NCBI GenBank assembly: GCA_021234155.1
Contig: JAJEKV010000084.1
Location: 124,001 to 188,000, forward strand
Length of the DNA: 64,000 nucleotides
Source of the DNA: Isoetes taiwanensis
Taxonomy: Eukaryota > Streptophyta > Lycopodiopsida > Isoetales > Isoetaceae
Direction: 5' to 3'
The position numbers and the translations under genes are program-made. Under the pieces are notes generated by a model. It did not search any database. It had not been told where the DNA came from and worked only from the letters and a program-made list of their open reading frames with translations. Positions 4,223-64,000 of this stretch are shown piece by piece. Each line of letters opens with the position of its first letter. The stretch's first letter is position 1.

Positions 4223-4223
4223 G

Positions 4224-4241: not shown

Positions 4242-4424
4242 TTGGAGACCAAGAGCAAAGCAGCCCATGTTCCCGATAGCACTAACTTGATAGGATCCTC
4301 AAACCTCGAAAAAGCGAGAAATTTTTTTTCTCATTTTTGTAGTTATGCTAAGCTAGTAACGATTAAAAGGAATAGAAACGTAAAAGACTAAAATTGATGA
4401 GCCAACATCCAAAAAAGTAGGGTG

Positions 4425-4755
4425 GTCTCACCGCGTTCGCCGGAATGATTTCTACATTTTAGAAATCGGGGCATAGCGATGTGAGACATTCACTTTGACA
4501 CCAAAAAAAAGTTGTAAATCACAATAAAATATCTTGATAATTTTAAATTTAAGCTAAGAATTAGTAGATTTAGCATGTTACATGTTAATTTAATAGTGGG
4601 CCCCACCATGTCTCACGTCGGCGCCAGAGGCGGGTTTCTAGATTCTAGGAATCGGGCTGGGCGAAGCGTGAACCTAACTTATTAAGTGTTTTAGATGCCT
4701 TAGACAACCCAAAAAGGTAGTTTAAAAGTTGACCTAAAATTGGCCCTATAAATAG
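4425..4755 (+). promoter_or_regulatory. Internal promoter module of element A: two palindromes plus TATA
   Basis: Two long imperfect palindromes (4425-4487 and 4610-4672), each starting GTCTCAC, are followed by CTATAAATAG at 4746-4755. The box lies about 104 bp before the ATG of the histone-H3-like remnant at 4859. Element B has the same module in front of both of its accessory genes, with the identical 10-bp box. The inner arms here differ (TTTCTAcaTTTTAGAAA type) from those in B, while the symmetry is kept, which suggests the fold or dyad matters. Confidence 0.65.
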
Positions 4756-4858
4756 AACCTGGACCCCTCCCATTTTTCCCGTTCTTCACGAGAACTTAAA
4801 CAATATTGTCAAAGGCGATCTCCTAGCCCAGCGTAGCTCAATCGACGAACGAAAAATG

Positions 4859-9572: not shown

Positions 9573-10436
9573 GTTAATTCTTATAATTAAGATTAATCTC
9601 GCATGCCACTGCGCTTGGTATGGGTGCATCGTGTTACCGATGATGGGACCACTACGGTGATCTCTAGGGCGTGGTGTAATGTCAATGTAGGCATGACCGC
9701 GTTTCGCTTTGGGCGTGGAAGGTAGATTAGAAAGTCTACTTACGTCCCGCGAGTAGGCGACCTCGAAGAAAGGAGGTCATTGAGGAATGCATTCATAGGA
9801 AAAGCACCTTTAGCCCCATATATGCTTTGATAGGAGGAATCTATCCTTAGCCCCCCCACTTGAAGGATATCCTCCTGTTGAGCAACTAGAGGTGTAGGCA
9901 TGGCGGCATATAGGCATGTAGGCTTTGTCTCCGGCGGCCATAATGGAAGATTCACCCTCTTCCTGTAGGAGATTAGCCATGCATCCATGTAGATAGGTGG
10001 GTTGGTCACCATATAACCAAAAATTTTAATTAATAATTAAATGGTACTAACGTAGTGTCGACTGCACAGCCAAGCGATGGCGCTCCCGAGGGCAAGGAGG
10101 TCGAGCTCACGAAGACTTGCAACACAAATTTTGTTGGAATGTGTTGCAAGGAAGGAAAAAGAGTGCCTCGAGCGTTAATTTTAAATTTTGATAAACTTAA
10201 TCGTAATGTTAAGTGAAGTTTGGAGTAAATTGTCTAGTAATATCATTGAATTGATAAGTTATTTCATAATATAATGATGTAATAATGTCATAAAAATATT
10301 ACCTTGAGGTAATTGTAATAAATGTGTAAGTATTATAGGAGCATATCGCATGCATCGGGTTGATTGCGGGTTAGGAAGATTCAAGGTGGGAGAACCCGCG
10401 ATCTTTGCGGACGACATCATTTCAAGGTGGGGAGAA
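9573..10436 (+). other. 3' non-coding region and polypurine tract, element A
   Basis: No gene is visible between the chromodomain and the LTR. One stretch (about 9645-9700, containing GATCTCTAGGGCGTGGTGTA) is shared with the same position in elements B and C, so it is a conserved 3' region. The polypurine tract AAGGTGGGGAGAA at 10424-10436 abuts the 3' LTR and primes plus-strand DNA synthesis. Confidence 0.75.
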
Positions 10437-12243
10437 TGTGGCGTTCGGCCACGATTATCTCGCTCGGGGCGTATATTGTACTACCACGTCACGCGTTACC
10501 GCCGCCACCCCGATTGACGTGTGCGTAGCGTATAGCCAAGTGGGTAGCCCTAGGGGGCAACTTGCTAAGAATGTGCATTAGTATTAATGTGCACATTTTC
10601 CAATGTACACATTAATGTGGGCACACATTTCCATGTGGCCACTTGATGCCAAGTGGGCCATACCCATAGGTGCAAGTAATGTGCACATTTTCCAATGTAC
10701 ACATTCATTAATGTGCACACATTTCCATGTGAGCACATTTGGGTGCACACATTTCCATGTGGGCACATTTGGCCCACCTAGCCCTTAAAGGCAAGTGGGC
10801 CCATTACCAATATCCCACATGCCAAAGGGGATAATTGGAAACCCTAACCACCCCCTTGTCTATATAGGGTAGGAAACCTAACTAACCTAATTTTCGATTT
10901 TAGGGTTTCAGAACTCTGTTTTGGCTGCCTCAACAGCCAAAACCGCATCCCAGACTCTGCTTGGGAGAATTACATCCTCGGTTTCTCGAGATTGACGTTT
11001 CAGCGAGGATGGTCGAGAGCTCGAGTCGGAGGAGCCCCTCAAGGATCAGGTATTTGGCCAATTAGATAGTCTAAACCCTATTTTAGGCATTGAATCAGTA
11101 GGTTTAGCCTATTAGATTGCCCATAGCAGCCCTCTAGAACTCTAGATAGCAGATTCTAACTAAAGAACCTAACTCTATGATATAGATTAGATCTTGTTCT
11201 TTAGTTCTTCTGTGATGTATATGGATGATGTATCTCTGTGAACTCCTTGTATTGGGAAGGGGGGTAGAGACCTAAAGCTTGGTAGTTGATGCTCCTAGAG
11301 TAGCCTCTCTAGCACACTGTAGATGCGGCCTGCGTACAATAGCCCGCCTGTGTTGTGTTCTTAGGGGTCAGACCGGTTGATAAGGGTGGCTGTGTCCATA
11401 GCGGTTGCTCTCTCGGGATGTAAAGTCTACCCGGAGAGCACTGCAGACTAGCGCTTAATACTCAGGGACTGCGTGCACCCTGAGTATGAGTTCGACACCC
11501 GTTGGGGATAAGAAGCCGTGCCTGGCGACGGTGCCACCAGGGGTTTCAGCCGAGGTCCTGTGTGCAGTGGTTGTGCTGGCACAGGGGTCGGGACCTGATC
11601 GTGGTGGTAGTTCCCTTCAAGTGGGTTAAAGTCGAAAATGACGGTTGGTGTCCTCTAGTCCGCCTGCTATGGCATTGATCATCTGGTGGGAGAGAAACCT
11701 CCCTACCGCCTCATCGGTGCAGGGGAGATGTAACCTGGCTATAGCCCCTTTGGCTATGATCCCGGCGAGGCTCACGGTCCAACCCGAAGTTCTTCAACCT
11801 ATCTCGCAAAGTGTACGCAGGGAGGGGCGGATGGAGTGGACAACCCTAAGCCATGTTCATGTACCCGGCCAAATCCATTGCCATGAATTGATTGCGCAAT
11901 GAACTCACGAGACCCAAGCCGTCGATCATCCCTTTGAGTCCGAGCCTTGGGTAGGATTCCCTATGTGATGTGCTGATCTTTGTCTATGCAGATATGTGGA
12001 GGGCCATCCTTCGTGATGGTCATATGATATTGATGTATGTGCTACTGACATGTATGTTTACGCTTCCGCAGCTAGGTAGGCCCTGAGGGAGACGGGGTGC
12101 AATGACCCTTCCACTCTTCCCACTGGAACCCGTCACGGTTGCAGTGTCATGTGGAGGGCCCTGTATTAGCATGGAGCTGGTATGGGGGATGAACTCCTGT
12201 TTGTATACGGTGAGGGCACCGTATACGAGTAGGGGACGTCACA
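10437..12243 (+). repeat. 3' LTR of element A
   Basis: About 1.81 kb, from TGTGGCGTTCGG to GGGGACGTCACA, followed by the TSD CATTC at 12244-12248. It matches the 5' LTR along its length. The differences cluster at CAG/CTG sites in both copies. Confidence 0.92.
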
Positions 12244-39340: not shown

Positions 39341-40324
39341 TTACAATTTTTCAGCCAATGCTCCAGCTTCAGACATACTTCCAACATTAATGACAAGGTG
39401 TTCAATTTTATTACCTGTCAAAATGATATTCTTAGAGGAAGAATCTGCAGCACATGTACCGACATGATCAGAAACAGCATCAGGAAAGTAATACTTTAAC
39501 TCTGGCCTCTGCTCTAATATAGCAGCAAAATCCCGCCGCGTGTACTCATCATCTACTAAAATCGGTGGAATAGAATTTGTCACATCGCTCAAAGGCCTGG
39601 ACAAATCTGCAGCCTTTCCAGCACTTGTACTAGCCAAACCAACATTGAGATTTTCAACATTATCTTGAAAAGACTCCGAATATTTTTTCCCACTAGACAA
39701 CACATCCATCGTTGAAGCCTTAGCTACCACACCACTTTGGTTGTACCTCTTGTATGACTCCGGGTTCTTATGCCCTGTAATCGCCATACCAACCTCTATA
39801 GGAACTCCAGAGGCTAACATCTGCGTAATTGTTATATGCCTGCAACTCTTATTCGTGAAATGACCTTCAATGTTACAAACGCTGACCATATCATTCAGCC
39901 AATTAGAAATGGCTTTCTGCGATGCATGGTTCGTCTGATAGCATGTATTAGACCTGGGACGATTAATTGCAGACAAGAAGATAAACCTACCACCTCTTTT
40001 ATCCTTGACTTCATAAGTCGGAAGATGAAACAATAGAAGCTTTCAAGTGTTAATAACATCCGGTTCATAACAACGGACTGGCTGCCTAAAATCCTCAGTC
40101 TTGCACTTATTTATCGTGCATGTCCAATTCTTAGAAATGGTCTCATAGTATTCAATATAATCCCTTACAAAATCTTTTCCAACATTGAATTGAAAATCAC
40201 GAACCTTGCATAGGTCTTTACCACCATGGATGAGAAACCTTGTCATGCAATAAAAGGCGTAGCTCTTTTGCAAACTTGTATTAACTCCAACCTGATGCAT
40301 TGGATGTGCCAATGTTATCTCCAT
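39341..40324 (-). pseudogene. Crypton-like tyrosine recombinase (DUF3504 type)
   Basis: One minus-strand frame, interrupted by a single TGA at 40043-40045, reads through 40324-39341. Upstream: SYAFYCMTRFLIHGGKDLCK, KNWTCTINKCKTEDFRQPV. Downstream: KAISNWLNDMVSVCNIEGHF, then TNKSCRHITITQMLASGVPI, TGHKNPESYKRYNQS. This is the catalytic order of eukaryotic tyrosine recombinases of the Crypton/KIAA1958 kind: Arg in SCRH, His in TGHK and the nucleophile Tyr in YKRY. The position of the classical first Arg is not clear (LIHGGKD). The TGA could be a CGA-to-TGA change. The frame ends at TTG-TAA, where GTAAGT could also be a splice donor. A MITE sits just upstream. Such enzymes integrate Crypton elements; some hosts reuse them. 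Confidence 0.75.
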
Positions 40325-42048: not shown

Positions 42049-42053
42049 AAAAC
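42049..42053. repeat. Target site duplication of element B, left (AAAAC)
   Basis: AAAAC here is repeated at 57663-57667 on the other side of element B. Confidence 0.88.
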
Positions 42054-43425
42054 GGTGACGTCCCCTACTCATATACAGTGCACTCACCGTATACAAACAG
42101 GAGTTCATCCCCCATACCAGCTCCATGCTAATATAGGGCCCTCCACGTATCACTGTAACCTTGGAATGTTCCAGTGGGAAGAATGAAGGGGTCATTTACC
42201 CTGTCTCCCTCAGGGCCTACCTAACTGCGGAAGAGCAATATACATGTCAGTAGTACATACATCAATAACATATGACCACCACGAGGGGTGGCTCACCACA
42301 TATCTGCATAGACAAAGATCAGTGCATCACATAAGGGAGTTCTACCCTGGCTCAGACACAAGGTTGGACTGACAAGCTTGGGCCTCCAGAGATCAAGCAG
42401 ACAGAGTGCAATAACAGTGGAGTTGGCTGGCAAAGGAACATGGCAGTTGGGTAGTCCGCTCCATCCGCCCCTCCTGTGCATACTTTGCAGAGTAGGTTGA
42501 TAAGTCTTGGGACTGGACTGTAGCCCGCCGGATGCATAGCCAAATGGGCAATTCCTGGGTTGCATCTCCCCAGTTCCGATGGGGCATATAGGGATTTCTC
42601 CCACCAGAAGCTAGCATGCTGACTCAAGGCGACTAGAGGGCCACTGCCCTTACTCGACTGAACTCCATGGAAGGTGTATACCACCCCAAGAGTGTCGAAC
42701 CCATGCAACAGCCCGCACGCAGTGGCAGTGCATTAGATCTAGTGCGCGGAAGTCCCCGATAGGCCTTACTACCAGAGGGACAGTTCATGAATCGGGACAT
42801 GAGCTTCCTTATAAGCCAGTCTGGCCCCTCCATCCACAACCAGATTTGGTTCTTGTACACAGGCCGAATATTAGTAGTGCACTAAAGGGACTAGCTAGGA
42901 GCATCAACTACTAGGCTTGTAGGTCTCTACCCCCCTTCCCAATACAATGAGTCCACAGAGATCATCCATACATCCATATCATCAAAGAACTAAAGAATAA
43001 TATCTAATCTACATCATAGAAGTTAGGTTCTTTAGTTACGGCTCCCTATCGAGGGATTTTTTTTAGAGGGTTTTTTTTACGATGGCAAAGAGGGTTAAAT
43101 ACCAAAAAAAATTGGTAGACTTTATAAATTTGCACCTCACAATTTAGAACGAATAAACATGTCATGAGACGTAGTGCACACTTTGCTTAAGAATTAATAT
43201 GAAGATAACATTAGCATATAGAAATAATTTCAAAGAGATGTTCCGAAGGATTAATGATGTAACGTTCCTAACCGACATGCCCTTAACCAACTGGGCAAAA
43301 CCGTCTAGACGTTTATGAGTAGTCGTTTCTACCCATTTATGCCGGTGTCTCGGGAACGCCCCACAGGCACATTCAAGGTTCGAATACTCGAGCGGTCTAC
43401 CATGGGCCCGTTACAAATGAGGACA

Positions 43426-44406
43426 TCATCGAAGGATTAAGCGCAAGACATCCTCTGTGATCACAGGTTGGATCACGTCTAAATACAATCTAGGATCATG
43501 GTTCAATATCTTGGCTAGAATATACATCAAATGTTTGCATGGTGTATATTGTTGTTTTGCTGTTCTAGCCAAGAAATCTGCACATGTGCACTCTGGATAT
43601 TTGCAGATTCTCACCTTGTAGGTTTCATTTGGTCTTCTAATACAGTATTCAACATCTAATTGAGGTGTGATGACTTTTGTTGAAAGCAGTTGACATTCGA
43701 ATTGCAGAGCTTGTTCAAGTCTGACTTCTGCTTCTTTCCCCAACTTTGTTCTTTTATTCATACGTTTTCCAAACCGCACCATAAATGCCGTAGAGTTGCT
43801 CGCCTTGGTGGAATCATTTTCCATGGAAGGATTGCATGGGTTGATCCCTCTAATTGAGTAGTTCCCCTTCTCTAATACTCCCAACTCTTCACTGCTTAAT
43901 TTGACCCCAGTACTGACTGGCCAATCAGCTGGCCTAGCCGGCACATGTAATATGTTAGTAGAGGGATACCAAGTATGCTGCACATGTTCAGGACAAAACC
44001 AAAACTTCTGTATGACCTCCCTTCCATTTGCTGTCCTTGCCCCTGTAAAACATGGTGCTGCTGTTGATCTAGTAATGATCTTATTGATAAGAGAGTTGCA
44101 CTTCCTACCATTTGGTCCTAATTTTCCCTGGCACTTCACTCTACTACCTGGCTCAGTTCTTCTAATAGCCCACTCTTCTTGAGGCACATCAAACTCATGA
44201 ACAATATAAGTAGCTTCATCAAACACTATGTTACGTCTTATTGATGCATCAACTCTAATTCTAGATTGAGTATAAGCCCTCTTATCTGGTCGATGGCTAC
44301 CTGATCCCTTGTCCCTATTGTACTCTGAACTATCTCTAGTCCGCTTAAGAACTGTCTGATTATTCCCTCCAGAACCTGGATTTGTGGCACGAATTCCAGT
44401 ATTCAT
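43426..44406 (-). CDS. SWIM zinc-finger protein, 326 residues
   Basis: An uninterrupted ORF from ATG at 44406 to a stop at 43426. Residues 1-60 are basic and polar. Around residues 90-145 there is a likely second metal site: CQGKLGPNGRKCNSLINK ... FWFCPEHVQHTW. Near the C-terminus CKYPECTCADFLARTAKQQY then TPCKH gives the CxC...CxH pattern of a SWIM zinc finger, with a longer spacer than usual. SWIM domains occur in MULE transposases, FAR1-type factors and other DNA- or protein-binding proteins. No DDE transposase core is present. It lies divergently, with a 34-bp overlap, to the methyltransferase-like exon. Its open frame in a mobile element suggests recent function; the role is unknown. Confidence 0.7.
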   Translation of the reverse strand: MNTGIRATNPGSGGNNQTVLKRTRDSSEYNRDKGSGSHRPDKRAYTQSRIRVDASIRRNIVFDEATYIVHEFDVPQEEWAIRRTEPGSRVKCQGKLGPNGRKCNSLINKIITRSTAAPCFTGARTANGREVIQKFWFCPEHVQHTWYPSTNILHVPARPADWPVSTGVKLSSEELGVLEKGNYSIRGINPCNPSMENDSTKASNSTAFMVRFGKRMNKRTKLGKEAEVRLEQALQFECQLLSTKVITPQLDVEYCIRRPNETYKVRICKYPECTCADFLARTAKQQYTPCKHLMYILAKILNHDPRLYLDVIQPVITEDVLRLILR

Positions 44407-45403
44407 CTATTACTTCACATGTGGATGTTCAGATTGTTTGTGATGATGTTCTACGTGCTTACGAGCAATATACTAAGAAGCTAGATTGTCCGTGCTTTAA
44501 CGAAGTCAGGGAGTTTGCAAAAGTTCATTCCAGGGACTCTCACAAATATAGCAGAAGCGGAGTTACAAGAGATTGGGGCTATGATTTAGTTATCATTGAC
44601 TTTCCCACACATGACTTGCAAAGCAACGAACATTTGGAGGTTCCAGAGTGGAACAAGTGCACCCACAGCTTGGTGCAAGCTGCATTCTCCTTTGGAACCC
44701 TATGTTTAGATGATGATGGTTGGATAGTATCTATTTGTTCACCAGAGCAATTGAAGATAATAGAGAAAGAGGCAAGGTTGAAATGCCTAGAAGCTACAAG
44801 GACTTATTTTCTGCAACAAGATGGGGCTTTAGGCTACACAAAGGATAGATTGGGGGTGTTTGAGAATAATGTGCTTATTGTTAACTTGTGGTCAAGAAAG
44901 GGAACAAAACCATCTCTTCAAGCAAGTCGTATTTCCAAAGGTAAGCTTGATTGTCGAATATTTTTATTTCATATAATCAATGTTAAAGCTATATGGTAAC
45001 AATCTTATGAATCTTTTCAGGTGATAGTTTTTCATGTGCCAAAGCTTCATTGAAACATTTCTTTACACCTGGAAGTAGACTTCTTGCGAGTCAATTAGCA
45101 CCAGCTAGAATGTTCATTGAGAAATCAATTGACTTCATGAAATTCATCATCGAGAACATGAGTCCCGAAGAAGGTTTGATATTAGATGTATTTAGTGGAA
45201 CAGGTTCTACATTAGTTGCATCAGCTATTTTGTCTCGCCATTGTTATGGGATTGACAATGATAAGGCACTTGTTGAGCATGTGAGATTTTCTCGTTTATC
45301 AAAACTTCAAAAAGTGTCTCATACGACAATTGAGAAGCACAATATATCTTTGGAGGAAGAATCTGAGGATGAAATGCCTCAAGAAGATGAGGAACCTGCT
45401 TAG
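44373..45403 (+). CDS. Beta-class DNA methyltransferase-like exons, 5' end missing
   Basis: Two exons join in frame across a clean GT-AG intron (44941-45020). The first has DLVIIDFPTHDLQSNE, at the place of the catalytic (D/N/S)PP(Y/W) motif IV; the second has LILDVFSGTGSTLVASA and CYGIDND, the SAM-binding motif I. Motif IV before motif I is the beta arrangement of N6-adenine/N4-cytosine methylases. DFPT is not a canonical catalytic motif, so activity is doubtful. The first exon has no ATG; AG at 44371-44372 is a possible splice acceptor, so an upstream exon is needed, or the gene was captured without its start. The frame ends DEEPA at TAG, just inside a GTAAGT; a possible third exon follows at 45498-45598. 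Confidence 0.6.
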
Positions 45404-46500
45404 TAAGTGTATATGAAAGTGGTTTTCTTCTTTTTGTTGTAATAATGGTTACTCTGGTTATTAGCTAATTATTATAGTGTTCTTCCTATCTATGCAGAAT
45501 CTATGGCTCGCTTTTTAGTTGGATCAAAAACTCAGAAAGTAAAAGATAAAAGGCGTAGACGATGTTTCCTTGTAGATGATGAATGTGAGCAGGGTTGAGA
45601 TGTTTTCATCATAATATGTGTAAGACAAGAGCTTTGAGTTTTACTTTTTCTCCTTGTATGTTTAAGGGCTTTCTTTACTTCAAGATTTAACTCTAAATAT
45701 GTCTTTTTTAGTTAAATTCAGAAGCTCTAAAATCCTTTTTGCAAATTCAAATACGATCTATAACATTAACGTTTTTTGTGATATGAATAGGTCTTGTTGA
45801 AATAGTAATTAGTTGTGATATGAATAGTTCTTGTGAAATGGTAATTAGCTTGAGCTTTAGTCTTTCAACAATTTACAATGTGTTGCTAATTGGTGACATA
45901 AATATATCGTCTCCAAACCACTCTCATTCATATGGGTGCATTTAAATGCACATTTTAAAATATACACAAAAAAAACCCACTAAACCATCCTAAAGAAAAC
46001 CCTCTAAAAATTTGCACTCCTATCTATCTAGAGTTCTATGTGGCTGCTATGGGCGATTCAATAGGCTAAACATGCTAACTCTACGCCCGGCAGGCAGATT
46101 AGGCTATTGAATTGACAAAATACCTCCTCCTGCTCGGAATGCGTCCATGTCGCTGTCTTGCTTGGAGATGCAGTCGGAAAGGAAATCTGACGAGCTAGGG
46201 TGCTCAGGCAGATCTTGGGAGTCGGGATTGACTCTTGAAGCGCGCGAAACGGAGCTCGGAAGGACTGTGGACGAAAAAGAGAAAGTTAGGGTTTGGTTGC
46301 CTTACATAGGCTATCAGTTACCCTTGGTATGCCCACTTAATGGTTAGTGGTCTAAAGTGCGCACATTAATAAGTGTGCGCACCCTTGCAAATTGCCCCCT
46401 ATGGCGCCACTTGCTTGGCTACTCGATTGGAATGGCGTGTACACGTGATGGTGCAGTACGGTATACGTCTTGAGACCGTATATCGTACTGGAACGTCACA

Positions 46501-47328: not shown

Positions 47329-48585
47329 CTACACCACTATCGACATGTCTGCGTCGATTTCTTCGGAGATGATCTTGCCATCCCATTGCTCTATGAATTC
47401 CGGGTACTGCCTTATGAGGTCCTGCTTAAGTACCCACGTCGCATCTTCCACTGGCAAGTGTTTCCACTTGACCAAGTATTGGAGAAATTCCGATCTCCTT
47501 GTCTTCTTGATTGCTTTATCAAGGATCAAGTCTGGGACTATCTCTAGCTGCTCTTCTATCATTTCCAACAAGATTAGTGTGTCCAAGACTTCTTCTGGGT
47601 TTGGAGTATTCTTCTTCAACAGACTCACGTGGAAGACCTTATGAATTTTCAGGTGTGCTGGCAGGTCCAACTTATAGGATTGATTACCTACTCTCTTGTC
47701 TATTCTGAAGGGACCCGCCCACCTTGGAGCAAGCTTCTTGCAATTTCCGATGCGGAGCTTTGCCTGCTTTACCTTGATCTTGAGCCAAACATTGTCACCA
47801 ACTTCAAACTCTCTGACTGTTCGGTGCTTGTCGGCGATGCTCTTTTGTCGACTCCTTGCTGCGAGAAGATATCCTCGAACCTCTTCCACCAGCTGCTGCA
47901 TGTCGGCCAACATTTGCTGCGAAACCTCTACTTTTGACACTGGATTGTGCCAAATGTCTGGAGTTAGGCATTGGTAGCCGTAGTTGATCATGAACGGCGA
48001 CGTTTGGGATGATTCCTGCTTGGTGCTATTATAAGCGAACTCCATCAAGTGAATAAACTCTTCCCACATACTCTGCTTGTTCCAGACATAGTTTCGTAGC
48101 GTGTCTTCTAAAATTCTGTTGGTCCGTTCCGTTTGCCCATCAGTCTGAGGATGATAGGCCGTGCTCATTGACAGCTTCGTCTGAATTGTCGTCTGAACTG
48201 TCCTTGGAAGCCCTGTTATGAAGTCCATGCTGATGACCTCCCACTTAGCGTTTGGCACCGCTAATGGTTCCAATGCTCCGGGAATTCGAAGCTGCTCTGC
48301 CTTTGTTTGTTGACACAACTGGCACTCCTTGATGTAGCGAGCTATCTGCTTCTTCATGCCTGGCCAGTAATAACTGCTTTGAATTTTGAAGTATGTCTTC
48401 ATGAATCCCGCATGGCCAGCTATTGGGCTGTTGTGGGTGTCGTGAAGAATCAACTTCCTCACTCCTGATGACTCCGGCACGCACAACGTATTCTTGTAGT
48501 ATAAGAGGTTACCTTCCTTCTTGAAATTCTTGAAGGTCTCCCTCTCCTTGTCTATTCTTGCTTCTTTGCACAAACTCGCCCACAC
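47329..48585 (-). CDS. Integrase with deleted core plus chromodomain, element B
   Basis: Minus-strand ORF of 418 codons. The zinc-binding HHCC region is intact (HDTHNSPIAGHAGFMK ... CQLCQQ). The catalytic core starts with EVISMDFITGLPRTVQ, the first Asp, but then passes directly to QTKLSMSTAYHPQTDGQTER with the last Glu. Element A has about 70 more residues between these, including the second catalytic Asp, so this copy has lost that residue in an in-frame deletion. The C-terminal domain (RQKSIADKHRTVREFEVGDN) and the chromodomain (YLVKWKHLPVEDATWVLKQD) are complete. The protein would bind DNA and chromatin but should not cut or join DNA. Upstream it is out of frame with RNase H. Confidence 0.88.
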   Translation of the reverse strand: MWASLCKEARIDKERETFKNFKKEGNLLYYKNTLCVPESSGVRKLILHDTHNSPIAGHAGFMKTYFKIQSSYYWPGMKKQIARYIKECQLCQQTKAEQLRIPGALEPLAVPNAKWEVISMDFITGLPRTVQTTIQTKLSMSTAYHPQTDGQTERTNRILEDTLRNYVWNKQSMWEEFIHLMEFAYNSTKQESSQTSPFMINYGYQCLTPDIWHNPVSKVEVSQQMLADMQQLVEEVRGYLLAARSRQKSIADKHRTVREFEVGDNVWLKIKVKQAKLRIGNCKKLAPRWAGPFRIDKRVGNQSYKLDLPAHLKIHKVFHVSLLKKNTPNPEEVLDTLILLEMIEEQLEIVPDLILDKAIKKTRRSEFLQYLVKWKHLPVEDATWVLKQDLIRQYPEFIEQWDGKIISEEIDADMSIVV

Positions 48586-48618: not shown

Positions 48619-50154
48619 TCAATCTTCCTTCCGAAATCGCTGGTGAGCGTGGAGATTGCATTGCAATGGACTCTTGTTGTCAGGGGGTGCCTTGAAAGTG
48701 CATCTGCTACCACATTGGAGTTTCCCCGGCTTATAGACTATGTCGAAGTCGTATTCTTCGAGGAATTCCATCCACCTTCTTCGCCTCAGGTTGAGGTGTG
48801 GTTGCGTGAACACGTATTGGAGACCCTGATGATCTGAGTCAAGTTGGAACTTCCTTCCCAACAGGTAGTGCCTCCAAATCCTTAATGCCCTGACAACTGC
48901 AAGCAATTCTTGATCATGAGTCGGGTAGCGTGTTTCGGCGTCGTTCATTTTCCGCGAATCATATGCTACAACTCGCTCTTCTTGCATCAATACTGTGCCT
49001 GTAGCAATTTTACTTGCATCCGTTGCTACAAGCTTGTCCTTCTCGGGGTCTGGCAAGGTTAGGACGGGTGCGGTTGTCAAAGATTCCTTCAACAAGTCGA
49101 ATCCCGCTTGGGCTTTCTTCTGTCAGTGCTCTGCCCAATCTTTCACCTTTTCTGCCCTTGTCAGATCTGTTAGCGAGGCTGCTATCTTTGCAAAGTTCTT
49201 CACGAACTTCCTATAGTACCCTGCTAGGCCGAGAAAGCTTCTGACCTCATGGATGTTCTTTGGCGCCGGCCATTGTATTACTGCTTCGATCTTGGCAGGA
49301 TCTGTTGAAATTCCCTCTGCTGAGATTACGTGCCCCAGGTAGTCTACTCTCTCCGTTGCGAAGTGACACTTTGACAACTTCGCGTACAACTGGTGCCTTC
49401 TGAGCTTCTCCAGCACTTTTCTAAGGTGTTGTACATGTTCTTCTAGGGATTTACTGTATACTAGAATATCGTCAAAGAATACTATGACGAATGCGTCTAG
49501 GAACTCCCTAAAGATGTCGTTCATGAGTCTCATGAACGTTGCTAGGGCATTTGACAATCTAAACGGCATCACGGTGAATTCATGCCCATATTGGGTTCTG
49601 AATGCAGTCTTGTGGACGTCCTCTTCCTTGATCCTGATCTGATGGTAGCCCGACCTCAGGTCTATCTTGGAGAATACCTTTGCACCTTGGAGTTGATCCA
49701 TCAGGTCGTCCGATCTTGGGAGCGCATACTTGTTCTTGATGGTGTGCTTGTTTAGCTGCCTGTAGTCTATGCACATCCTCAAGCTACCATCCTTCTTCTT
49801 CACAAAGAGGATGGGTGCCCCAAATGGCGAGACACTGGGTTTGATGAAGCCTAGGTCGAGCAACTCCTGCAATTGCTTCTTCAACTCGATTAGCTCTTGC
49901 GTCGTCATCCTGTACGGCGCTTTGCTTGTTGGTTTTGTCCCTGGTTCGAGTGCTATTTCACACTCGACTCCCCTGTAAGGAGGAAGCTTCTTGATCTCGT
50001 CTGGAAAGAGATCATGGAACTCCTTTACCAACTTAGCTATCTGTTTTGGTAGCTTGTTGAGTACCTTATCTTCTTCACTTTCTCCTAACTCAGGCTCTTC
50101 CATCTGTAGCTTGAAGATATAGGCTATCTGCTCGTTCCTTATGCACTTGAACAC
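48619..50154 (-). pseudogene. Reverse transcriptase and RNase H, element B
   Basis: One frame with a TGA at 49123-49125 ([23 protein letters not shown]), where relatives have Trp. The RT part has [38 protein letters not shown] and [14 protein letters not shown] with both active-site Asp residues. Two conserved positions are changed ([12 protein letters not shown] for the usual MPFGLTNAPATF). RNase H follows with VATDASKIATG, THDQELLAVV and LDSDHQGL, then loses its frame after DIVYKPGKL. The ORF overlaps the protease ORF by 16 bp in another frame. The enzyme would be nearly complete but for the stop. Confidence 0.9.
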
Positions 50155-50986
50155 AGGCGCTTACTAGACATACATTGCATGATAGGCACGACTTCTTTAC
50201 CTGTAATTTCTATGATTTTGCCATTGGGCGCCGTGAGGGTCACCTTCCGCTTCCCACAATCAATGATGGCTCCTGCTGGGCCGAGGTACTCCATGCCGAT
50301 AATTAAATCGTACTTGCCAATGTTCATCACCTCGGCTCCTATGGGGATGTTGATTCCTGACAAGTCGATGTCGAAGTTTATCCTCTTGCTGGCCGTGTGC
50401 CTTACTCCCCCGTTTGCTAACACCACGGGTCTCGGCTTTGACTTCAGCGGTTTCAGCTTCAGCATGTCAACCATCTTTGGGGATGCAAAATTGTGGCTAC
50501 TTCCCGAGTCTATCAGGATTATGAATGACTTGTCCTTGGCCTTCCCTACTGTGGATATTACCTGATACTGCTTCTCTGCTTGTTCTGTATCTATAGCGGC
50601 AAAGATGTGGCACTCACCCTGTATGAAGTCGCGAGCTTCCTCGCCGTCGTTGTCAGAGGGAGTCTCCCATCCGCCCATTTCTGCTAGAGCCGCATTCATG
50701 ACAAATGGGCAGTTCGCTGTCCTGTGGCCCGGTTGGAAGCACCTGAAGCAGAGTTGCTTCTCGATGCACTCCTTCCTCTTTTCTTTAGGTATTGCCTGCA
50801 AAAAGGACCGTACCGCCTTCGAATAGTTCGATCCTTCTTGCCGCGATTTATCCTTGAAGGATACCTGCTTCCTTTCTTGCTGCTTCCCATAGTTGCCACT
50901 GTATAGGGCCTTTGCTGGTCCCGGACTAGTTGCTCTAGGGCTGTAGCTGCCCGATGCTTGGCCCTTGTCCTTGTAGTATTGCTGTT
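50139..50986 (-). pseudogene. Nucleocapsid zinc knuckle and aspartic protease, element B
   Basis: The frame is open from about 50986 (NSGLKQQYYKDKGQ) through the knuckle CFRCFQPGHRTANC (CX2CX4HX4C) to the retroviral-type protease active site FIILIDSGSSHNFAS and IGKYDLIIGMEYLGPAG. It ends at 50139. The gag N-terminal ORF is in another frame and stops at 50987, and the RT is in a third, so Gag-Pol is not continuous. Element A breaks at the same places by different amounts, so I do not see a conserved frameshift signal. Confidence 0.85.
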
Positions 50987-51970
50987 TCAGCCCACTGTTT
51001 GGAGGTCCAGATCCTTGCAGGCTGACGGGCTTTGATTCTGCCTCTGAGACTGTTCAGGGTTGATTGCCCTCACCAGCTTCCTTATTTCGTCATTCAGCCC
51101 TTCAATGTATCCTTCGACTGCATGCCGTTCACTTAGCTTTGGCACATACAGCCTCAGCCTCATGAATTCTTCCGTGTATTTTTGCAGGGACTTATTTCCC
51201 TGCTCCAGCCTGTAGAACTGTTGCATCATATGGCATTTGTGCTCTCTTGGCACATAGTGTCGCTTGAATGCCTTGGAGAACTTTCGAAACCTGCAGCTGT
51301 CTCGGCTTAGCTTGTGCGACTTGGCATATCCCTTCCACCATATGCGCGCTGCCCCCTTGAGGTTGGCTGTGGCCACCTTACCCTTGTCCTTGTCCTTCAT
51401 TCCATAGGCATTGCCGTACTCGTTCATCTCATCGAGCCAGGCCTCTGCTTCCATGCCTGACCTGTTGTCGCCCGAGAACTGTTCGAGCTTTCTTGCCTTC
51501 CACACATTGCTGAGTGCGGAGTCTATCTTCTTTTGATAATCTGAGGCCCCTGCTGTCCTGAGCCTGCCCTCTCTGCGGTCATGCACTTCTTCCTCGGAGT
51601 CAGAGTCCGATTTTGAGCTAGTGTCGGAGGTGTCTGTGCTAGGAGACCTCCTTCTCTTGCTCCTCTTCTTATCTTTCCCCGACTTTCGAGGTGTTGCTTG
51701 CGGCCCTTGAGCGTTGTTATCCGGTCCGACTGATGCTTGTGCCGCCAGTAGGGCTTTTATTTGCTGAAGTTCCGACTTCATTTGCGACATTTCTTCTTCT
51801 GGGGTTAGAGGGCCGTATTCCTCGAACAGGTTCCTTGCAATGGGTTGCCTGTCCGGGGTCTCTTCATCTCTGTTGGCTCTCCTGTCTTGCTCGACTGTTC
51901 TTTGATCCCTAGCTGCATATACAGTTGACCATAGCCTTACGGTTAGATTTATTTGCTTTATTGCATTCAT
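50987..51970 (-). CDS. Gag capsid region, element B
   Basis: ORF of 327 codons. It contains an acidic/basic low-complexity stretch (KKRSKRRRSPSTDTSDTSSK) and then a typical plant Ty3/gypsy gag domain: AEAWLDEMNEYGNAYGM, AARIWWKGYAKSHKL, FKRHYVPREHKCHMMQQFYR, KYTEEFMRLRLYVPKLSERH, YIEGLNDEIRKLV. It assembles the particle and packages RNA. The zinc knuckle is in the next frame. The start at 51970 is only the first ATG; a likely splice acceptor (TATGCAG before CTAGGGATC at about 51905) suggests the real gag mRNA may be spliced from the leader. Confidence 0.85.
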   Translation of the reverse strand: MNAIKQINLTVRLWSTVYAARDQRTVEQDRRANRDEETPDRQPIARNLFEEYGPLTPEEEMSQMKSELQQIKALLAAQASVGPDNNAQGPQATPRKSGKDKKRSKRRRSPSTDTSDTSSKSDSDSEEEVHDRREGRLRTAGASDYQKKIDSALSNVWKARKLEQFSGDNRSGMEAEAWLDEMNEYGNAYGMKDKDKGKVATANLKGAARIWWKGYAKSHKLSRDSCRFRKFSKAFKRHYVPREHKCHMMQQFYRLEQGNKSLQKYTEEFMRLRLYVPKLSERHAVEGYIEGLNDEIRKLVRAINPEQSQRQNQSPSACKDLDLQTVG

Positions 51971-52089: not shown

Positions 52090-53631
52090 CTATTCTTGAA
52101 ATCGCCGGTAGGATTGATTATCCTCAAGAAACTTCTTAACTTGGGTTGTTCCTACCGAACGTCCCAAGTTCTTGAGGATATTTGTTGATGACCCGCCCTG
52201 CAAGGCTGTCACCAATTCCTCTACCCTGCAGTCGGAAGTGTAGGCCGCGGTTACTGCTAGTCTTCCCTGCCGTCGGTAGGGCACGGCGAAGTCGAAGATG
52301 TCAAGTGCCATCGTTCTCTTGACTAAGATGGCATAGTCGGTGTTTGAAGCCAGCCGAGCATGCCTGCCAAAGTCTGAGAGTGCGATGAGCATGAATACTC
52401 CTTCTTCGCCCATGGGGCTGAATTTGCGGTGTATTACCGCTATTCTCTCGTCCATCAGCAGGGGAAGATAGTATCTTAGCGACCTGTCGTTGTGCGACGT
52501 TGTTGATTCGTCGTCCCCTCGGGCTCCGGCTCTATGTCTCCCTGCATACTCATCGACGTCGATTTCTGTGATTTCTCCATAGTCTCTGACTATCGATGTG
52601 ATTCGCCGCAGGTCGATCTCGCCTCTTCTCTGAACACCTGCGGGGGTTGTTGTCGAAGAACTTGGCATCAGAATGTTCGTGCTCTTGCCACGGATCCTCA
52701 TCCATTCTTGGATGGCATAAAACTCTTCTTCAGATGGCAGCTCCCGAGCTTCCATCATTTGGCGGATGCTGCTATACGCCTGAATGTCCGAAGTTGACTC
52801 TCCGGTGTAGGTGTCGGCTTCTCTGACCTGGATCGGGAAGTCGGAAGCCTCCCAGTCGATGAAGTCATCCAGATCTTGCTGTTGCCGTAGAAGATACAAC
52901 AACTCGTCGAGTCGGTACTCCTTGTTCCTGCATTCGGGGAGGTTCAGGATGTCACTAAGGAGCAAGTACTCCTGGCCGTCGATGATGATGGGGGCTAGGC
53001 TGGTGATACCTAGCCCGAGCGGGGGAGCGATTCTGAGGGTCCGCTGGTCCTGTTCGAAAATTGGCATCACCTGTTCCGCTAACTGCCGCTCTTCTTCGGG
53101 GTCGAGCTCGACGTAGTCTTCATCGTCTGAGTCGACCGGTTCCTCCTCTGCTCTTCCTTCTTGTTCCGCTTGGTACTGCAGTAAGAGCTGATCATGTGCT
53201 GAAGAGGCCAAGGGATCTATATCCATGGGAGGGATAGAGGTTTCCCTAATGGGGTTCTGGGCCCGGTGAGAAAGGAAAATGGCTAGGACAGCGGTGTATG
53301 AAAAATACTTGTTTCTATTAGCTGTCAAGACCATGTAGTCTGGTAATCTAGCAGCTTTATTGGTCAGATATTTGGCGATGTTGGGGACATCACCTAAGGC
53401 TGCTTGGAGGGATTGCCTGGGGACAAAGTATCCTGTGCATGGGGGAAGCTGTACTAGGGACGGTCCTACCCTAGCTTGGAATTCAGACATGACCTCCATG
53501 TAAGCTGGGGTTGCTTGCAACGTGGCTTGGACATCTAGCTCTTTGCGGAAAACCTGAAAAATTGCATTGATATCGGCTTCAGCTGCATGGGCACTGGCGC
53601 TGTACCATCGCCTGAAGTCAGCAGTTGCCAT
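52090..53631 (-). CDS. Accessory ORF2 of element B, 513 residues, unknown
   Basis: A single uninterrupted ORF between the H3-like gene and gag. Its N-terminal part (about 1-130) looks globular and helical (DFRRWYSASAHAAEADINAI). Residues about 155-182 are very acidic (EEEPVDSDDEDYVELDPEEE), a feature shared with many histone chaperones but also with many unrelated proteins. The C-terminal half is mixed and ends VKKFLEDNQSYRRFQE. No known domain is recognised and it does not look like gag or an envelope protein. It has its own palindrome-TATA module 113 bp upstream. Element A has lost it. Being the longest intact frame in a damaged element, it may have been kept by selection until recently. 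Function unknown. Confidence 0.7.
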   Translation of the reverse strand: MATADFRRWYSASAHAAEADINAIFQVFRKELDVQATLQATPAYMEVMSEFQARVGPSLVQLPPCTGYFVPRQSLQAALGDVPNIAKYLTNKAARLPDYMVLTANRNKYFSYTAVLAIFLSHRAQNPIRETSIPPMDIDPLASSAHDQLLLQYQAEQEGRAEEEPVDSDDEDYVELDPEEERQLAEQVMPIFEQDQRTLRIAPPLGLGITSLAPIIIDGQEYLLLSDILNLPECRNKEYRLDELLYLLRQQQDLDDFIDWEASDFPIQVREADTYTGESTSDIQAYSSIRQMMEARELPSEEEFYAIQEWMRIRGKSTNILMPSSSTTTPAGVQRRGEIDLRRITSIVRDYGEITEIDVDEYAGRHRAGARGDDESTTSHNDRSLRYYLPLLMDERIAVIHRKFSPMGEEGVFMLIALSDFGRHARLASNTDYAILVKRTMALDIFDFAVPYRRQGRLAVTAAYTSDCRVEELVTALQGGSSTNILKNLGRSVGTTQVKKFLEDNQSYRRFQE

Positions 53632-53743: not shown

Positions 53744-54212
53744 CTATTTATAGACAAAGGAAAAACCCTAATTTTTGGGTAGCTTGAAACAATCTTAGTG
53801 TTGGGCGATTCTTACCTATCTTGGGATCAAAATGAGGATTGGGAAGCTACTTTGAGGTTTTATGCATGAATAGGATGGTCTAATGAACCTGTTGCAACAA
53901 ACTAGAGGTCAATTGGGTGTTGGGTAAAAGAGAAAATGCTAGAAGGTCTCACACGATGCGCCTGGGGCTCGACCTAAATTTTAGGTTTGGCTTCTGGCGC
54001 GACGTGTGAGACATTTGGCCTATCGTGGTGAAAACTTGTCCGATTTGGGTGAACTATAGGTCAAATCACGCTAGTCTCATCGAGTTAGGCAAGATTGACT
54101 CCTTACTTGGTCGATTTGGAGGTGTTTTGGTCTAGTTTAGATATGAAGGTCTCACAGATGTGCCAGGGCTCGACCTAAATTTTAGGTTTGGTCTCTGGCG
54201 CGACTGTGAGAC
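53744..54212 (-). promoter_or_regulatory. Promoter module of ORF2: two palindromes plus TATA
   Basis: CTATAAATAG (53753-53744 on the minus strand) lies about 113 bp before the ORF2 ATG. Upstream are palindromes at 53946-54012 and 54149-54212, each with outer arms GTCTCACA...TGTGAGAC and an inner dyad ACCTAAATTTTAGGT. The sequence between TATA and ATG resembles that before the H3-like gene (CCCTCATTT, TTGCTCCC, GAGGCG in the same order), so one module was copied from the other. Confidence 0.7.
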
Positions 54213-54356
54213 ATTCTTCACTACTTGCTCTAAATATATCCAATTTAACTGAAACAAAAGCCATTACTCGTTAATTCAACTTAGTTAAGTTCATTTATAC
54301 ACATAATTTACTCAAAAAGATACTTTGTATTAAACAAAATTTTATTATTTACAAAA

Positions 54357-55638
54357 TTAATAAGGCTCTCCTTTGATATGACTGGCCAAGTGCATATCTT
54401 TCTTCATTAAGGTTACCCTTTTTGCGTGTACCGTGCATGCTGTTGCATCTTCAAAATGCTGCACAAGTTTCAGCTCCGCTGTTTCTTGTAGGGCTAGCAG
54501 CATCTCACCTGTTACCCTCATTTCGGTGCTATATTCTTGGACAACTTCTTTTACTAGCCTGGCGAAGGGAGCACGGGGGATAAGGAAGCCGAAACTCCTC
54601 TGGAAGTGCCGGACCTCCCTTATTGCTCGATTCAGCTTTGACTGGGCTTTCCTCTTCGGCGGCTTCTTTGGAAGTTTGGGCTTCTCTGGCAGCGGCTTTA
54701 GGGTCTGCTTCTTCGATGGCCGTCCACCTTCGACAATTCTGACCCTATTCTCCTGGTAATAGGCGTTGTAGGCTTCCCACTTCTTCATAAACGCATTGTG
54801 TTCCTTGAGCTTCCTCTGGTAGACCCTGATAGGGTCTATCACGTATGATTCCCGGGCAGGTCGCGGCGCTTTGTTTCTATCCCAAGTCGGGTAAGGCGGG
54901 GGCCCCTGCACCTGCTGTGGCTGCTCTTGGTCTTGAGCTCCCTGCTCGTCACCTGGGGGCTTGGAAGAACTTCCTTCTTGATGATGGGCCGTTGTAATCC
55001 TCATCCTCCGAGTCATCCGAGGATGATGGGGGCTGGTCTGCTGGCCGCTCTTGAATGACAACCTTTGCCAAAGGAGTCTTCTTTAGTCTTCTCTTGGGCT
55101 GCTCGACGCCTTTGCCCTTGAGCTTCTCCTTCAATTCGGCCTTCTTTGCTTCTTTTTCCTCCCTCTTCCTCTTCTTCTCCGCCTTTTTCTTCGCTCGGCG
55201 CCGCTCTTTTGCTTCATGCATCCGGATCCATGCCTTGAGGTGCTCCTCCTCAGTCGGCTCGGGGTTTGGGTCCCTCTGCTCTTCATGTACTTTGGCGTCT
55301 CGCTCCTGCTCCACCTTTTGTTGTTTCTCCCTCTCCATCTACTCGAGGACTCTCTGGATTTGGTCGTCTCCTTCTTCCTCGAGCACTTCAGTTGCGGCAT
55401 CTGAGTGCACCTCCTCTTCGTCCCCCTACTGGTTTACCTCCTGGTCGATGATGTTGGCGGGGCCATCCTGATCTCCTTGCTGTGATCCTTCTGCTTGGTG
55501 CTCCTCTGACTCTGTCCCGCTACTCGACAAAGGTTGGTCTCCTCCGGCAAGAAAACGCTCCTGAAGCATTCGCTGGAGTAGGGCGCTGGCAGTTCCGTCT
55601 CCTCGAGGGACCCTAGCAGTTTGCTTGGTTCTCGCCAT
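54357..55638 (-). pseudogene. Histone H3-like gene of element B
   Basis: The ORF starts MARTKQTARVPRGDG: residues 1-8 of the mature H3 tail are identical, Lys4 is kept, and Lys9-Ser10 become Val-Pro. A long charged insert follows (Glu/Ser-rich, then a Lys/Arg-rich coiled segment KERRRAKKKAEKKRKREEKE, then Pro/Gln-rich). The last 88 residues (54623-54360) are an H3 histone fold: AIREVRHFQRSFGFLIPRAP, RLVKEVVQEY, LALQETAE, HFEDATACTVHAKRVTLMKK, DMHLASHIKGE. By my hand alignment about half of the residues equal canonical H3, with no gap. Loop 1 has no CENH3-type insertion. TAG codons at 55426-55428 and 55339-55341 and one frameshift near 54950-55060 break this copy. A protein like this could enter nucleosomes or recruit H3-tail readers; that is inference. 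Confidence 0.88.
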
Positions 55639-55739: not shown

Positions 55740-56130
55740 CTATTTATAGCTTGGACAATTTTAGGTCAAAATTTAAGTTGCTCTTTTTAATGTGCCAAGG
55801 CCCCTATTGACTTAAAACATGTACTTATTTCAGAGTTTTCTAAGTACTGGTCTCACACGATGCGCTGGAGGCCCGAGCTAATAATTAGATCAAGCTTCTG
55901 GCGCGACGTGTGAGACATTTGTGCATTTTTGACTAAATTATGTAACTTCTAGGCATATTCCTAGGGATGTAATATACAAATCTAGCTAATTCTTACCTTA
56001 AAACTCGATCTAGCATGCTATCTTATTAAAATTCATCAAGTATTAAGGTGATTTTGACCTAATGTCTCACACGATGCACCCAGGGCTCGACCTAAATTTT
56101 AGGTTTGTGCTCTGGCGCGACGTGTGAGAC
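55740..56130 (-). promoter_or_regulatory. Promoter module of the H3-like gene: two palindromes plus TATA
   Basis: CTATAAATAG at 55749-55740 (minus strand) is about 102 bp before the ATG at 55638. Palindromes at 55850-55916 and 56064-56130 have GTCTCACACG...CGTGTGAGAC arms. The outer one has the inner dyad ACCTAAATTTTAGGT; the one nearer the gene has a different, weaker centre. The TATA box is identical to those of ORF2 and element A. Confidence 0.7.
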
Positions 56131-56321
56131 ATTCTTACCTTTAGAAAGATTTGGCTGAAGTTTTTAGTCTTTTTATGTTCCAATTTGCCTAACTGTTACT
56201 AGCTTAGCATATACTACAAAAAATGAGAAAAAAGTTTCCCATTTTTTCGAGGTTTAAGGATCCTATCAAGTTAGTACTACTGGGAGCATGGCCAGTGCTT
56301 TGCTCTTGGTCTCCAAGAATA

Positions 56322-56335
56322 TTGCTTTGATACCA
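56322..56335 (-). other. Primer binding site of element B (tRNA-iMet)
   Basis: On the minus strand TGGTATCAAAGCAA follows the 5' LTR by two bases, close to the usual TGGTATCAGAGC. Confidence 0.82.
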
Positions 56336-56337
56336 CA

Positions 56338-57662
56338 GTGACGTCCCCTACTCATATACGGTGCACTCACCGTATACAAACAGGAGTTCATCCCCCATAC
56401 CAGCTCCATGCTAATATAGGGCCCTCCACGTATCACTGCAACCTTGGAATGTTCAGGTGGGAAGAATGAAGGGGTCATTTACCCTGTCTCCCTCAGGGCC
56501 TACCTAGCTGCGGAAGCGCAATATACATGTCAGACACAGGGTTGGACTGACAAGCTTGGGCCTCCAGAGGTCAAGCAGACAGAGTGCAATAACAGTGGAG
56601 TTGGATGGCAAAGGAACATGGCAGTTGGGTAGTCTTGCAGAGTAGGTTGATAAGTCTTGGGACTGGACTGTAGCCCGCCGGATGCATAGCCAAAGGGGCT
56701 ATTCCTGTGTTGCATCTCCCCAGTTCCGATGGGGCAGGTAGGGATTTCTCCCACCAGAAGCTAGCATGCTGACTCAAGGCGACTAGAGGGCCACTGCCCT
56801 TACTCGACTGAACTCCATGGAAGGTGTACACCATCCCAAGAGTGTCGAACCCATGCAACAGCCCGCAAGCAGTGGCAGTGCATTAGATCTAGTGCGCGGA
56901 AGTCCCCGATAGGCCTTACTACCAGAGGGACAATTCATGAATAAGGACATGAGCTTCCTTATAAGCCAGTCTGGTCCCTCCACCCACAACCAGGTTTGGT
57001 TCTTGTACACAGGCCGAATATTAGTAGTGCACTAAAGGGACTAGCTAGGAGCATCAACCACTAGGCTTGTAGGTCTCTACCCCCCCCTTCCCAATACAAT
57101 GCGTCCACAGAGATCATCCATACATCCATATCATCAAAGAACTAAAGAATAATATCTAATCTACATCATAGAAGTTAGGTTCTTTAGTTACGGCTCGCTA
57201 TCTAGAGTTCTATGTGGCTGCTATGGGCGATTCAATAGGCTAAACATGCTAACTCTATGCCCGCAGGCAGATTAGGCTATTGAATTGACGAAATACCTGA
57301 TCCGTGGCTTGCTCCTCCTGCTCGGAATGTGTCCATGTCGCTGTCTTGCTTGGAGATGCGGTCGGAAAGGAAATTTGACGAGCTAGGGTGCTCAGACAGA
57401 TCTTGGAAGTCGGGATTGACTCTTGAAGCACGCGAAACGGAGCTCGGAAGGACTGTGGACGAAAAAGGGAAAGTTAGGGTTTGGTTGCCTTACATAGGCT
57501 ATCAGTTAGGGTTAGGGTTTCCATGACCCTTGGTATGCCCACTTAATGGTTAGTGGTCTAAAGTGCGCACACTTGCTTGGCTACTCGATTGGAATGGCGT
57601 GTGCGCATGACGGTGCAGTACGGTATATATCTTGAGACCGTATATCGTACTGGAACGTCACA
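56338..57662 (-). repeat. 5' LTR of element B
   Basis: About 1.33 kb, TGTGACGTTCCAG to GGGGACGTCAC. It is shorter than in element A because the TGTGCACAT minisatellite is absent. It also lacks a block around 42250-42350 of the 3' LTR, so the two LTRs differ by small deletions. The TSD AAAAC follows at 57663-57667. Confidence 0.9.
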
Positions 57663-57737
57663 AAAACCGTATGTTTTGTACTCTCAATATGGAGAAGCAA
57701 AACTGATAATTGTTTATCGTATTCCACACATTATAAC

Positions 57738-57835
57738 ACGTTTTGAGATTTTGGCATATGCACACTTGCACAAATGCATAGGGCATTTTGAGATTTTGGC
57801 ATATGCACACTTGCACAAATGCTTAGGGCATGCCT
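57738..57835. repeat. Tandem duplication, two 49-bp units
   Basis: TTTTGAGATTTTGGCATATG...CACAAATGCwTAGGGCA occurs twice head to tail with one difference. Confidence 0.85.
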
Positions 57836-63004: not shown

Positions 63005-63937
63005 CTAGCAATTCGCGGTCATGTCAACATCAACAATACACCACGTCCTAGAGAACACGAAGGTGATCTCATCATCGGTTATTATTATCATATACGATGC
63101 ATCTACCCCTCTAGAACATGATTCTCGGTAAATCAAGCCTTCAAGCTTACCGCCGGGAGCGGGGTTGATAGCATCGTTGATGGTGCGGCCTTGAGATTCC
63201 CGCATGAAGTCCGGATAGTGCTTCTCAAGGTCTATCTTCATCACCCAGGTAGCATCCTCAACTGGTAAGTGCTTCCACTTGACCAAGTATTGTAACATTT
63301 GAGTCCTTCTGGTCTGTTTGTAAGCTCGATCAAGAAGAGCTTCAGGCACTATTTCCAGCTGCTCTTCAGTCATTTCTAGGAGAGTTGGGGTATCCAAAAC
63401 CTCCTCTGGGTCAGGGGTGTGTTGCTTCAGAAGACTCACGTGAAAGACCTTGTGGATCTTCAAGCGGGGTGGCAGGTCCAAGCGATATGCTTGTTCTCCG
63501 ACGCGTTCAGTAATCTTGAACGGCCCAGCCCATCTGGGTGCCAACTTCTTACAGTTACCAATTTTAAGCTTGGCTTGTTTTACTTTGATCTTAAGCCAAA
63601 CCGATTCGCCCACCTGGAAGATCCGTGGGGTTCGGTGCTTATCCGCTAGACTCTTCTGACGACTGCGTGCGGCCAATAAGTAGCCCCGAACTTCCTCCAC
63701 CAAGGCCTGCATTTCTAAAAGGAGTTGTTGAGAGACCTCCACTTTAGAAACAGGGTTATGCCACGTGTCTGGAGTAAGACATTGATAGCCATAATTTATC
63801 ATGAAGGGAGACATTTTAGAAGACTCCTGCTTTGTACTGTTATAGGCGAATTCTACCAAGTAAATATAATCCGCCCATTGTGACTGTTTACTCCATACAT
63901 AGCTTCGTAGCATATCTTCGATAATCCCGATTGACAC
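63005..63937 (-). pseudogene. Integrase C-terminus and chromodomain, element C
   Basis: A long open frame reads FAYNSTKQESSKMSPFMINY, KQAKLKIGNCKKLAPRWAGP, KIHKVFHVSLLKQHTPDPEE and the chromodomain YLVKWKHLPVEDATWVMKID, then about 60 further residues without match. Just upstream the integrase core ends STAYHPQTDGQT and then meets a TAA at 63940-63942, with a shifted frame at the point where the third catalytic residue (Glu) is expected. The integrase of this copy is therefore inactive. The remainder of pol is outside the window. Confidence 0.85.
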
Positions 63938-64000
63938 GCTTACGTTTGACCATCTGTCTGAGGATGGTAGGCTGTACTCATGGCAAGCTTGGTCTGGATG

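Follow-up and report, generated by a model that had tools for sequence, protein, structure and literature searches.

A lineage of Ty3/gypsy chromoviruses in the lycophyte Isoetes taiwanensis has, to judge from its sequence, taken up histone H3 as a gene of its own, placed between the primer binding site and gag. The H3-like fold and, in the family designated A, also the N-terminal tail show the substitution pattern of purifying selection, and the family A gene lies behind a TATA box that is predicted to be its own. A selected H3 gene suggests that these elements alter DNA packaging for their own benefit. The window analyzed here is a stretch of 64,000 nucleotides (assembly GCA_021234155.1, contig JAJEKV010000084.1, positions 124,001 to 188,000) that contains a family A copy, and the whole I. 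taiwanensis assembly (1,658,258,908 bases, 1110 contigs) was searched for others.

The H3-like Gene of the Window Copy

The H3-like ORF of the window is found on the minus strand, with its ATG at 55638 and its end at 54357. It begins with the tail MARTKQTAR, continues with a long charged linker and ends with an H3 fold. The preliminary description had read this region as a single ORF which opens with the exact H3 tail and in whose fold about half of the residues match canonical H3 without gaps. The tail was found to be exact, whereas the single ORF had to be given up because the tail frame contains two stops and the fold sits in another frame. The window copy is therefore broken by two stops and one frame change. 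The stops of the tail frame fall at residues 71 and 100, its last residues reading ...FFQAPR before the stop, and the frame of the fold is open across 54357-55061. Three minus-strand pieces can be distinguished: an N-terminal piece read from the translation (55429-55638), which comprises the tail and the beginning of the linker and ends at the first in-frame stop; a middle piece, also read from the translation (54949-55338), which holds charged linker in the tail frame beyond the second stop; and a C-terminal piece (54357-55061), which holds the remaining linker and the fold in the other frame and is defined by Pfam and PDB matches.

The C-terminal piece gave a strong match to the Pfam Histone profile (E=2.5e-24), the check proposed with the original claim, and to a PDB H3.3 chain (E=3.5e-23). 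Based on the PDB match and the alignment, the fold itself occupies 54360-54626 on the minus strand and corresponds without gaps to H3 residues about 47-135. Of 30 fetched family A copies, 22 have a fold free of stops, and the residue most frequent among these is that of canonical H3 at 46 of 87 gapless positions, in keeping with the proportion of one half estimated earlier. A shallow AlphaFold run on the H3-like protein returned a low-confidence model (pLDDT 58) with the helix order of H3, and a Foldseek search with this model matched H3 chains at a TM of about 0.3, which adds little.

The Element Carrying the Gene

The genes of the element lie on the minus strand in the order H3-like ORF, ORF2, gag, protease, reverse transcriptase (RT) and integrase with a C-terminal chromodomain. 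The element is flanked by a 5-bp target site duplication (TSD), AAAAC, at 57663-57667 on the 5' side and 42049-42053 on the 3' side. Its paired minus-strand LTRs (5' LTR at 56336-57662, 3' LTR at 42054-46500) diverge by a K2P distance of 0.034 over 1305 sites. The primer binding site TGGTATCAAAGC, which we take to be initiator-tRNA-like, is found at about 56324-56335 on the minus strand. Downstream, all on the same strand, follow ORF2 (52090-53631, 513 aa), gag (50987-51970; Retrotrans_gag E=4.7e-17), a protease identified by Pfam and accompanied by a zinc-knuckle match under the Pfam cut-off (50139-50801), RT (49123-50154; RVT_1 E=1e-34), an RNase H region assigned by position only (48619-49095), and the integrase (47329-48585; Integrase_H2C2 3.1e-20, Chromo 1e-10). 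The H3 gene had been placed between the primer site and gag of a TSD-bounded element, and this location stands, but ORF2 also precedes gag.

One or more later insertions interrupt the 3' LTR. The main insertion, at about 43054-46023, has near-duplicate 8-bp ends (CTATCGAG/CTATCTAG) and contains ORFs at 43426-44406 and 44382-44999; it is perhaps a DNA transposon. Outside the element and adjoining its 5' LTR, two tandem 45-nt copies, 98% identical, lie at 57741-57830. A minus-strand ORF at 39341-40033 contains a stretch (HITITQML...GHKNPESYKRY) which, by eye, we take to resemble a tyrosine recombinase.

Copies and Families in the Genome

At least 150 copies of the family A H3-like gene were found in the assembly; here and below, genome-wide totals of H3-like loci are lower bounds. 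Among 150 scored copies, 24 (counted by eye) are free of stops, with an open frame of at least 400 aa, and of the 30 copies that were read, 5 (L003, L009, L020, L022, and L023) show no interruption between the ATG and the end of the fold. A canonical H3 query, entered by hand, recovered 15 full-length loci at 96-98% identity, presumed to be the host genes, and at least 135 further loci with H3 folds at 71-86% identity. Fifteen of these 135 were read and were assigned to two more families, 13 to family B and 2 to family C, several of them truncated or broken. Family B proteins begin, where the start was seen, with MA-x-TK or alike, followed by an N-terminal part of roughly 300 aa and then the fold. 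Only a trace of the tail is left in families B and C (MA-x-TK, METVK), and their folds match Pfam Histone at 2.4e-40 and 5e-42, respectively. Downstream of B/C-type H3 ORFs, either an ORF2-like ORF (L064, L086) or pol (L063) was found. The RTs of families A and B are 81% identical over 313 residues, and the two elements are therefore close relatives. At the edge of the window (63005-64000) lies another element (L086, C1094:191500-197500), which has a frame-shifted H3 ORF of the family B type upstream, beyond the window.

Relatives of the H3-like proteins were also sought elsewhere. With the family A C-terminal part as query, five H3-like proteins of 129-180 aa without the long linker were found, and with full-length family B the matches were swamped by ordinary H3. 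Residues 1-230 of family B had no match at E<=0.001 among 2428 candidates, and scans of IMG/VR returned no relative; these searches ran outside assembled lycophyte genomes and do not imply absence elsewhere.

ORF2 yielded 85 matches in the genome from 84 scored candidates. No Pfam domain above cut-off and no PDB relative at E<=1 was found for it, and its single-sequence structure model (pLDDT 34.7) was useless. The ORF2 proteins of families A and B did not match significantly by BLASTP. A profile comparison aligned them from residue 1 with a probability of 18% (E=0.0014 for one comparison), which is only suggestive of homology between the two.

Linkage of the H3 ORF to the Element

Among the matches listed, at least 24 H3-ORF2 pairs were found in the same order and on the same strand. 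Their spacing is 710-746 nt in 22 of the 24 listed pairs, the remaining two measuring 117 and 797 nt. RT was found within 9 kb downstream of the H3 ORF in at least 14 pairs among the matches listed, and no H3-ORF2 or H3-RT pair among these matches was reversed or on opposite strands. Moreover, an ORF2 match, in some cases partial, is present in 28 of the 30 fetched family A H3 loci. Had the H3 ORF been a private insertion, other members of the family should lack it, as the preliminary description pointed out. Eight ORF2 copies without a listed H3 match were picked. Each of the eight is preceded by an A-type fold, which in one case is interrupted by a frame change; five of the eight also show a tail-like start (at least 6 of 9 positions). 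No empty site for the H3 ORF was seen in the loci examined.

The window contains a related chromovirus on the plus strand at about 2401-12242. In this element the linker is matched at 5470-5670 and a TATA box lies at 4746, but the fold, ORF2, and gag have no counterpart at E<=1e-3; it is probably an internal deletion derivative.

Selection

Pairwise dN/dS (Nei-Gojobori) was calculated among 30 family A copies, with stop codons skipped and pairs set aside where dS was undefined or under 0.05. The median was 0.059 for the fold (317 of 435 pairs usable), in agreement with purifying selection near that on RT, for which the median was 0.035 (423 of 435 pairs; 30 of 118 listed copies). The linker gave 0.193 (435 of 435 pairs), and the wrong-frame controls for the fold gave 1.39 and 2.59. 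For the B/C fold the median was 0.023 (78 of 91 pairs of 13 family B sequences and 1 family C sequence), and for the family B N-terminal domain dN/dS was 0.087 (32 of 36 pairs of 9 sequences). Since the pairs are not independent, the medians are descriptive and do not amount to a test. For each of 14 B/C folds, dS relative to the host H3 gene was saturated.

An additional ORF is thus common to many copies, sits at a fixed place and is under selection, the features by which a captured ORF is recognized. Homology, constant order and spacing in many copies, and selection close to that on RT bear out the central claim of the earlier analysis, namely that the H3-like gene belongs to a Ty3/gypsy element.

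Conservation of Tail and Fold Residues

The tail MARTKQTAR is matched at 7 or more of its 9 positions by 27 of the 30 family A copies, and exactly by 20; the counts that follow leave out the 3 copies without such a tail. K4 and A7 are each present in 27/27 copies. R8 is present in 26/27 and is encoded by five codons, and the tail is accordingly conserved at the amino acid level and not at the codon level. Histone position 9 is V in 24/27 copies, with K, L, and P once each, and one of the 27 tails contains a stop. Most of the remaining H3 tail is unrecognizable by eye. The preliminary description had suggested that the protein could act on nucleosomes of the element's own DNA or compete for readers and writers of H3K4; the loss of K9 together with the retention of K4 fits such a role, short of proving it.

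In the family A fold, R49, E94, H113, K122, D123, L126, and I130 were found in 22/22 copies, and C110, K115, R116, and T118 in 21/22. These include residues which we take to serve H3-H3 and dyad contacts. R63 is replaced by P in 22/22 copies and K56 by R in 20/22, and none of the 22 retains K79 or R129. A nucleosome containing the family A protein might be weakened by P63, R56, and the loss of K79 and R129. The folds of families B and C retain R49, C110, H113, K115, R116, T118, K122, D123, L126, and I130 in 15/15 copies, and the residues checked in these 15 copies are canonical except D77 and E105. Because families B and C retain the fold and merely a trace of the tail, presentation of K4 cannot be the function common to all.

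Promoters and Palindromic Modules

The promoter-like module said to precede the H3 ORF was recovered in many copies. In the window, the TATA box of the H3-like ORF, CTATAAATAG, is found at 55740-55749 and that of ORF2 at 53744-53753, both on the minus strand. A regular expression located the H3 ATG in 23 family A copies, and CTATAAATAG precedes it in 18 of them, at -111 to -114 in 17 cases and at -89 in one. Before ORF2, CTATAAATAG lies at -98 to -123 in 24/24 found among 30 loci.

Two 73-nt palindromic modules were found upstream of each of the two ORFs in the window, at 55847-55919 and 56061-56133 for the H3-like ORF and at 53943-54015 and 54144-54216 for ORF2 (all minus strand). They fold far better than shuffled sequences (z -7.1 to -8.3). 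A survey of 38 loci, including L001-L030 and L082-L085, identified 66 modules with intact ends in 33 loci. Arm positions 8, 9, and 10 form Watson-Crick pairs in 63, 48, and 55 of the 66 modules, respectively, despite letter changes, and pairing is kept much less at positions 11 and 12. Conservation of the outer ends is built in because the search pattern required it. Within a locus, 34 of 48 module pairs have an identical 6-nt arm variant, versus 442 of 2097 pairs between loci. Such a pattern would be expected if the modules were recognition sites evolving together with a cognate factor. In eight B/C loci, some with short upstream sequence, no palindromic module was detected by a short pattern, and a TATAAA-like site was found upstream of the start in one of the eight.

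Origin of the Captured H3

In a tree of 48 folds, families B and C were joined (98/89) near canonical H3, and family A was placed on its own long branch. A single capture for A, B, and C was rejected, as a tree of 24 folds that holds the three together failed the AU test (p=0.017) on fewer than 100 columns and with long branches. Two separate captures into the same slot, one for A and one for B/C, are likely rather than demonstrated, the alternative being that the A lineage evolved faster. As to a possible derivation of A from CENH3, the grouping of A with Arabidopsis CENH3 had a support of 36/0, and a tree constrained to unite A with both CENH3 rows gave an AU p of 0.1.

Proposed Role and Alternatives

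Plants silence transposons via marks on histone H3. In the reading that we prefer, with a probability of roughly 0.45, the H3 variant would be made from the element's gene, pair with host H4 and enter nucleosomes or tetrasomes on the element's own DNA. There the family A tail could still be marked at K4, as in active chromatin, without offering the K9 silencing site, and the chromatin of the element would resist silencing. If the fold represents the common function, the family A tail may be a refinement, given families B and C. A more far-reaching version is tentative, with the odds against it: the lineage would have captured H3 at least twice and would build its own chromatin, K4-docking and, in A, K9-unmarkable, so that host silencing loses its substrate, with the H3 gene and ORF2 of family A controlled through palindromes that change in concert.

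Other roles for the protein can be envisaged. The ARTKQTAR end could act as a decoy that occupies host readers or writers of H3K4 off chromatin, with fold and linker serving stability, dimerization, or nuclear retention. Conservation of this end in family A, where most of what follows it in the H3 tail cannot be recognized by eye, is in its favor, as are the known virus-encoded histones (PMC9145170) and the existence of a review devoted to viral mimicry of chromatin proteins (PMC10208167). A decoy is nevertheless unlikely, as the fold is more constrained than the linker and retains the H3-H3 and dyad contact residues, and in families B and C the fold is conserved but the tail is not. A role in the particle or in integration is doubtful as well. 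Here the H3-like protein would condense the cDNA of the element or tether the pre-integration complex to chromatin, together with the chromodomain of the integrase, at a stage that precedes any nucleosome on integrated DNA; the integrase does carry such a terminal domain, and the H3 ORF belongs to the same element, just before ORF2 and gag. However, the family A ORF stands apart from gag-pol and has a TATA box to itself, an arrangement more in keeping with independent expression than with a component of the particle, and the chromodomain is by eye without the aromatic residues Y24 and Y48, making methyl-lysine reading questionable. Group II chromodomains lack these two residues (PMC3350952).

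The possibility that a captured host H3 is passively amplified with the element and has no function was judged highly improbable. LTR elements do acquire host sequence and most of the copies read are broken, yet among copies of a passenger without function dN/dS should lie near 1. This is contradicted by the fold values of 0.059 and 0.023, with wrong-frame controls above 1 in family A, and by the conservation of the TATA box and of a tail that has accumulated synonymous changes. Chance resemblance or an assembly artefact has a probability close to nil and was ruled out by the E-values and the copy number.

Relation to Known Systems

Extra ORFs in plant Gypsy elements (PMC9289625) and histones in DNA viruses (PMC9145170) are already known. 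With plant Ty3/gypsy chromoviruses the present elements share LTRs, a 5-bp TSD, an initiator-tRNA-like primer site, gag, protease, RT, integrase, and the chromodomain. They differ in that gag is preceded by two additional ORFs, of which the first is a histone H3 fusion, and in family A each of these has a TATA box and paired palindromic modules. Orchid Gypsy elements bear an additional AlkB/2-ODD ORF (PMC9289625) and likewise retain a captured host-type domain as an additional ORF; here, in contrast, the domain is a core histone found in several families and many copies, possibly from two captures. Viral histones include bracovirus H4, the single H3 of giant viruses, and those of Marseilleviridae and medusavirus (PMC9145170). 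A core histone fold in a mobile or viral genome is common to both, and several viral histones have extended or altered tails; the carriers covered there are DNA viruses or their descendants, whereas here the carrier is a retrotransposon. The string "retrotranspos" does not occur in the main text of PMC9145170.

CENH3/CENP-A also combines an H3-derived fold with a long divergent N-terminus, and some residues of the family A fold presumably recall CENH3. CENH3 has a longer loop 1 than canonical H3, whereas in family A loop 1 has the canonical H3 length (gapless alignment). Identity of the window copy is 51.7% with host H3 versus 45.2% with an Arabidopsis CENH3 sequence entered by hand.

No histone-encoding retrotransposon was found among the titles and abstract starts listed in searches of the open literature, a scope outside which most subscription papers fall. 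The word "histone" does not occur in the main text of two Isoetes genome papers (including PMC8566536), nor was it found by term search in PMC7264820, which deals with additional ORFs in plant LTR elements.

If the preferred reading of an element-made H3 variant is true, elements which supply H3, a gene kept by selection and present in at least 150 copies, would target what silencing acts on and not its enzymes, and histones would be a weapon in the conflict between transposon and host. Selfish histones would then extend from DNA viruses to retroelements. Whether a mobile element can determine which histones make up its own chromatin thereby becomes a testable question. Moreover, element copies may inflate the number of histone genes counted in such genomes.
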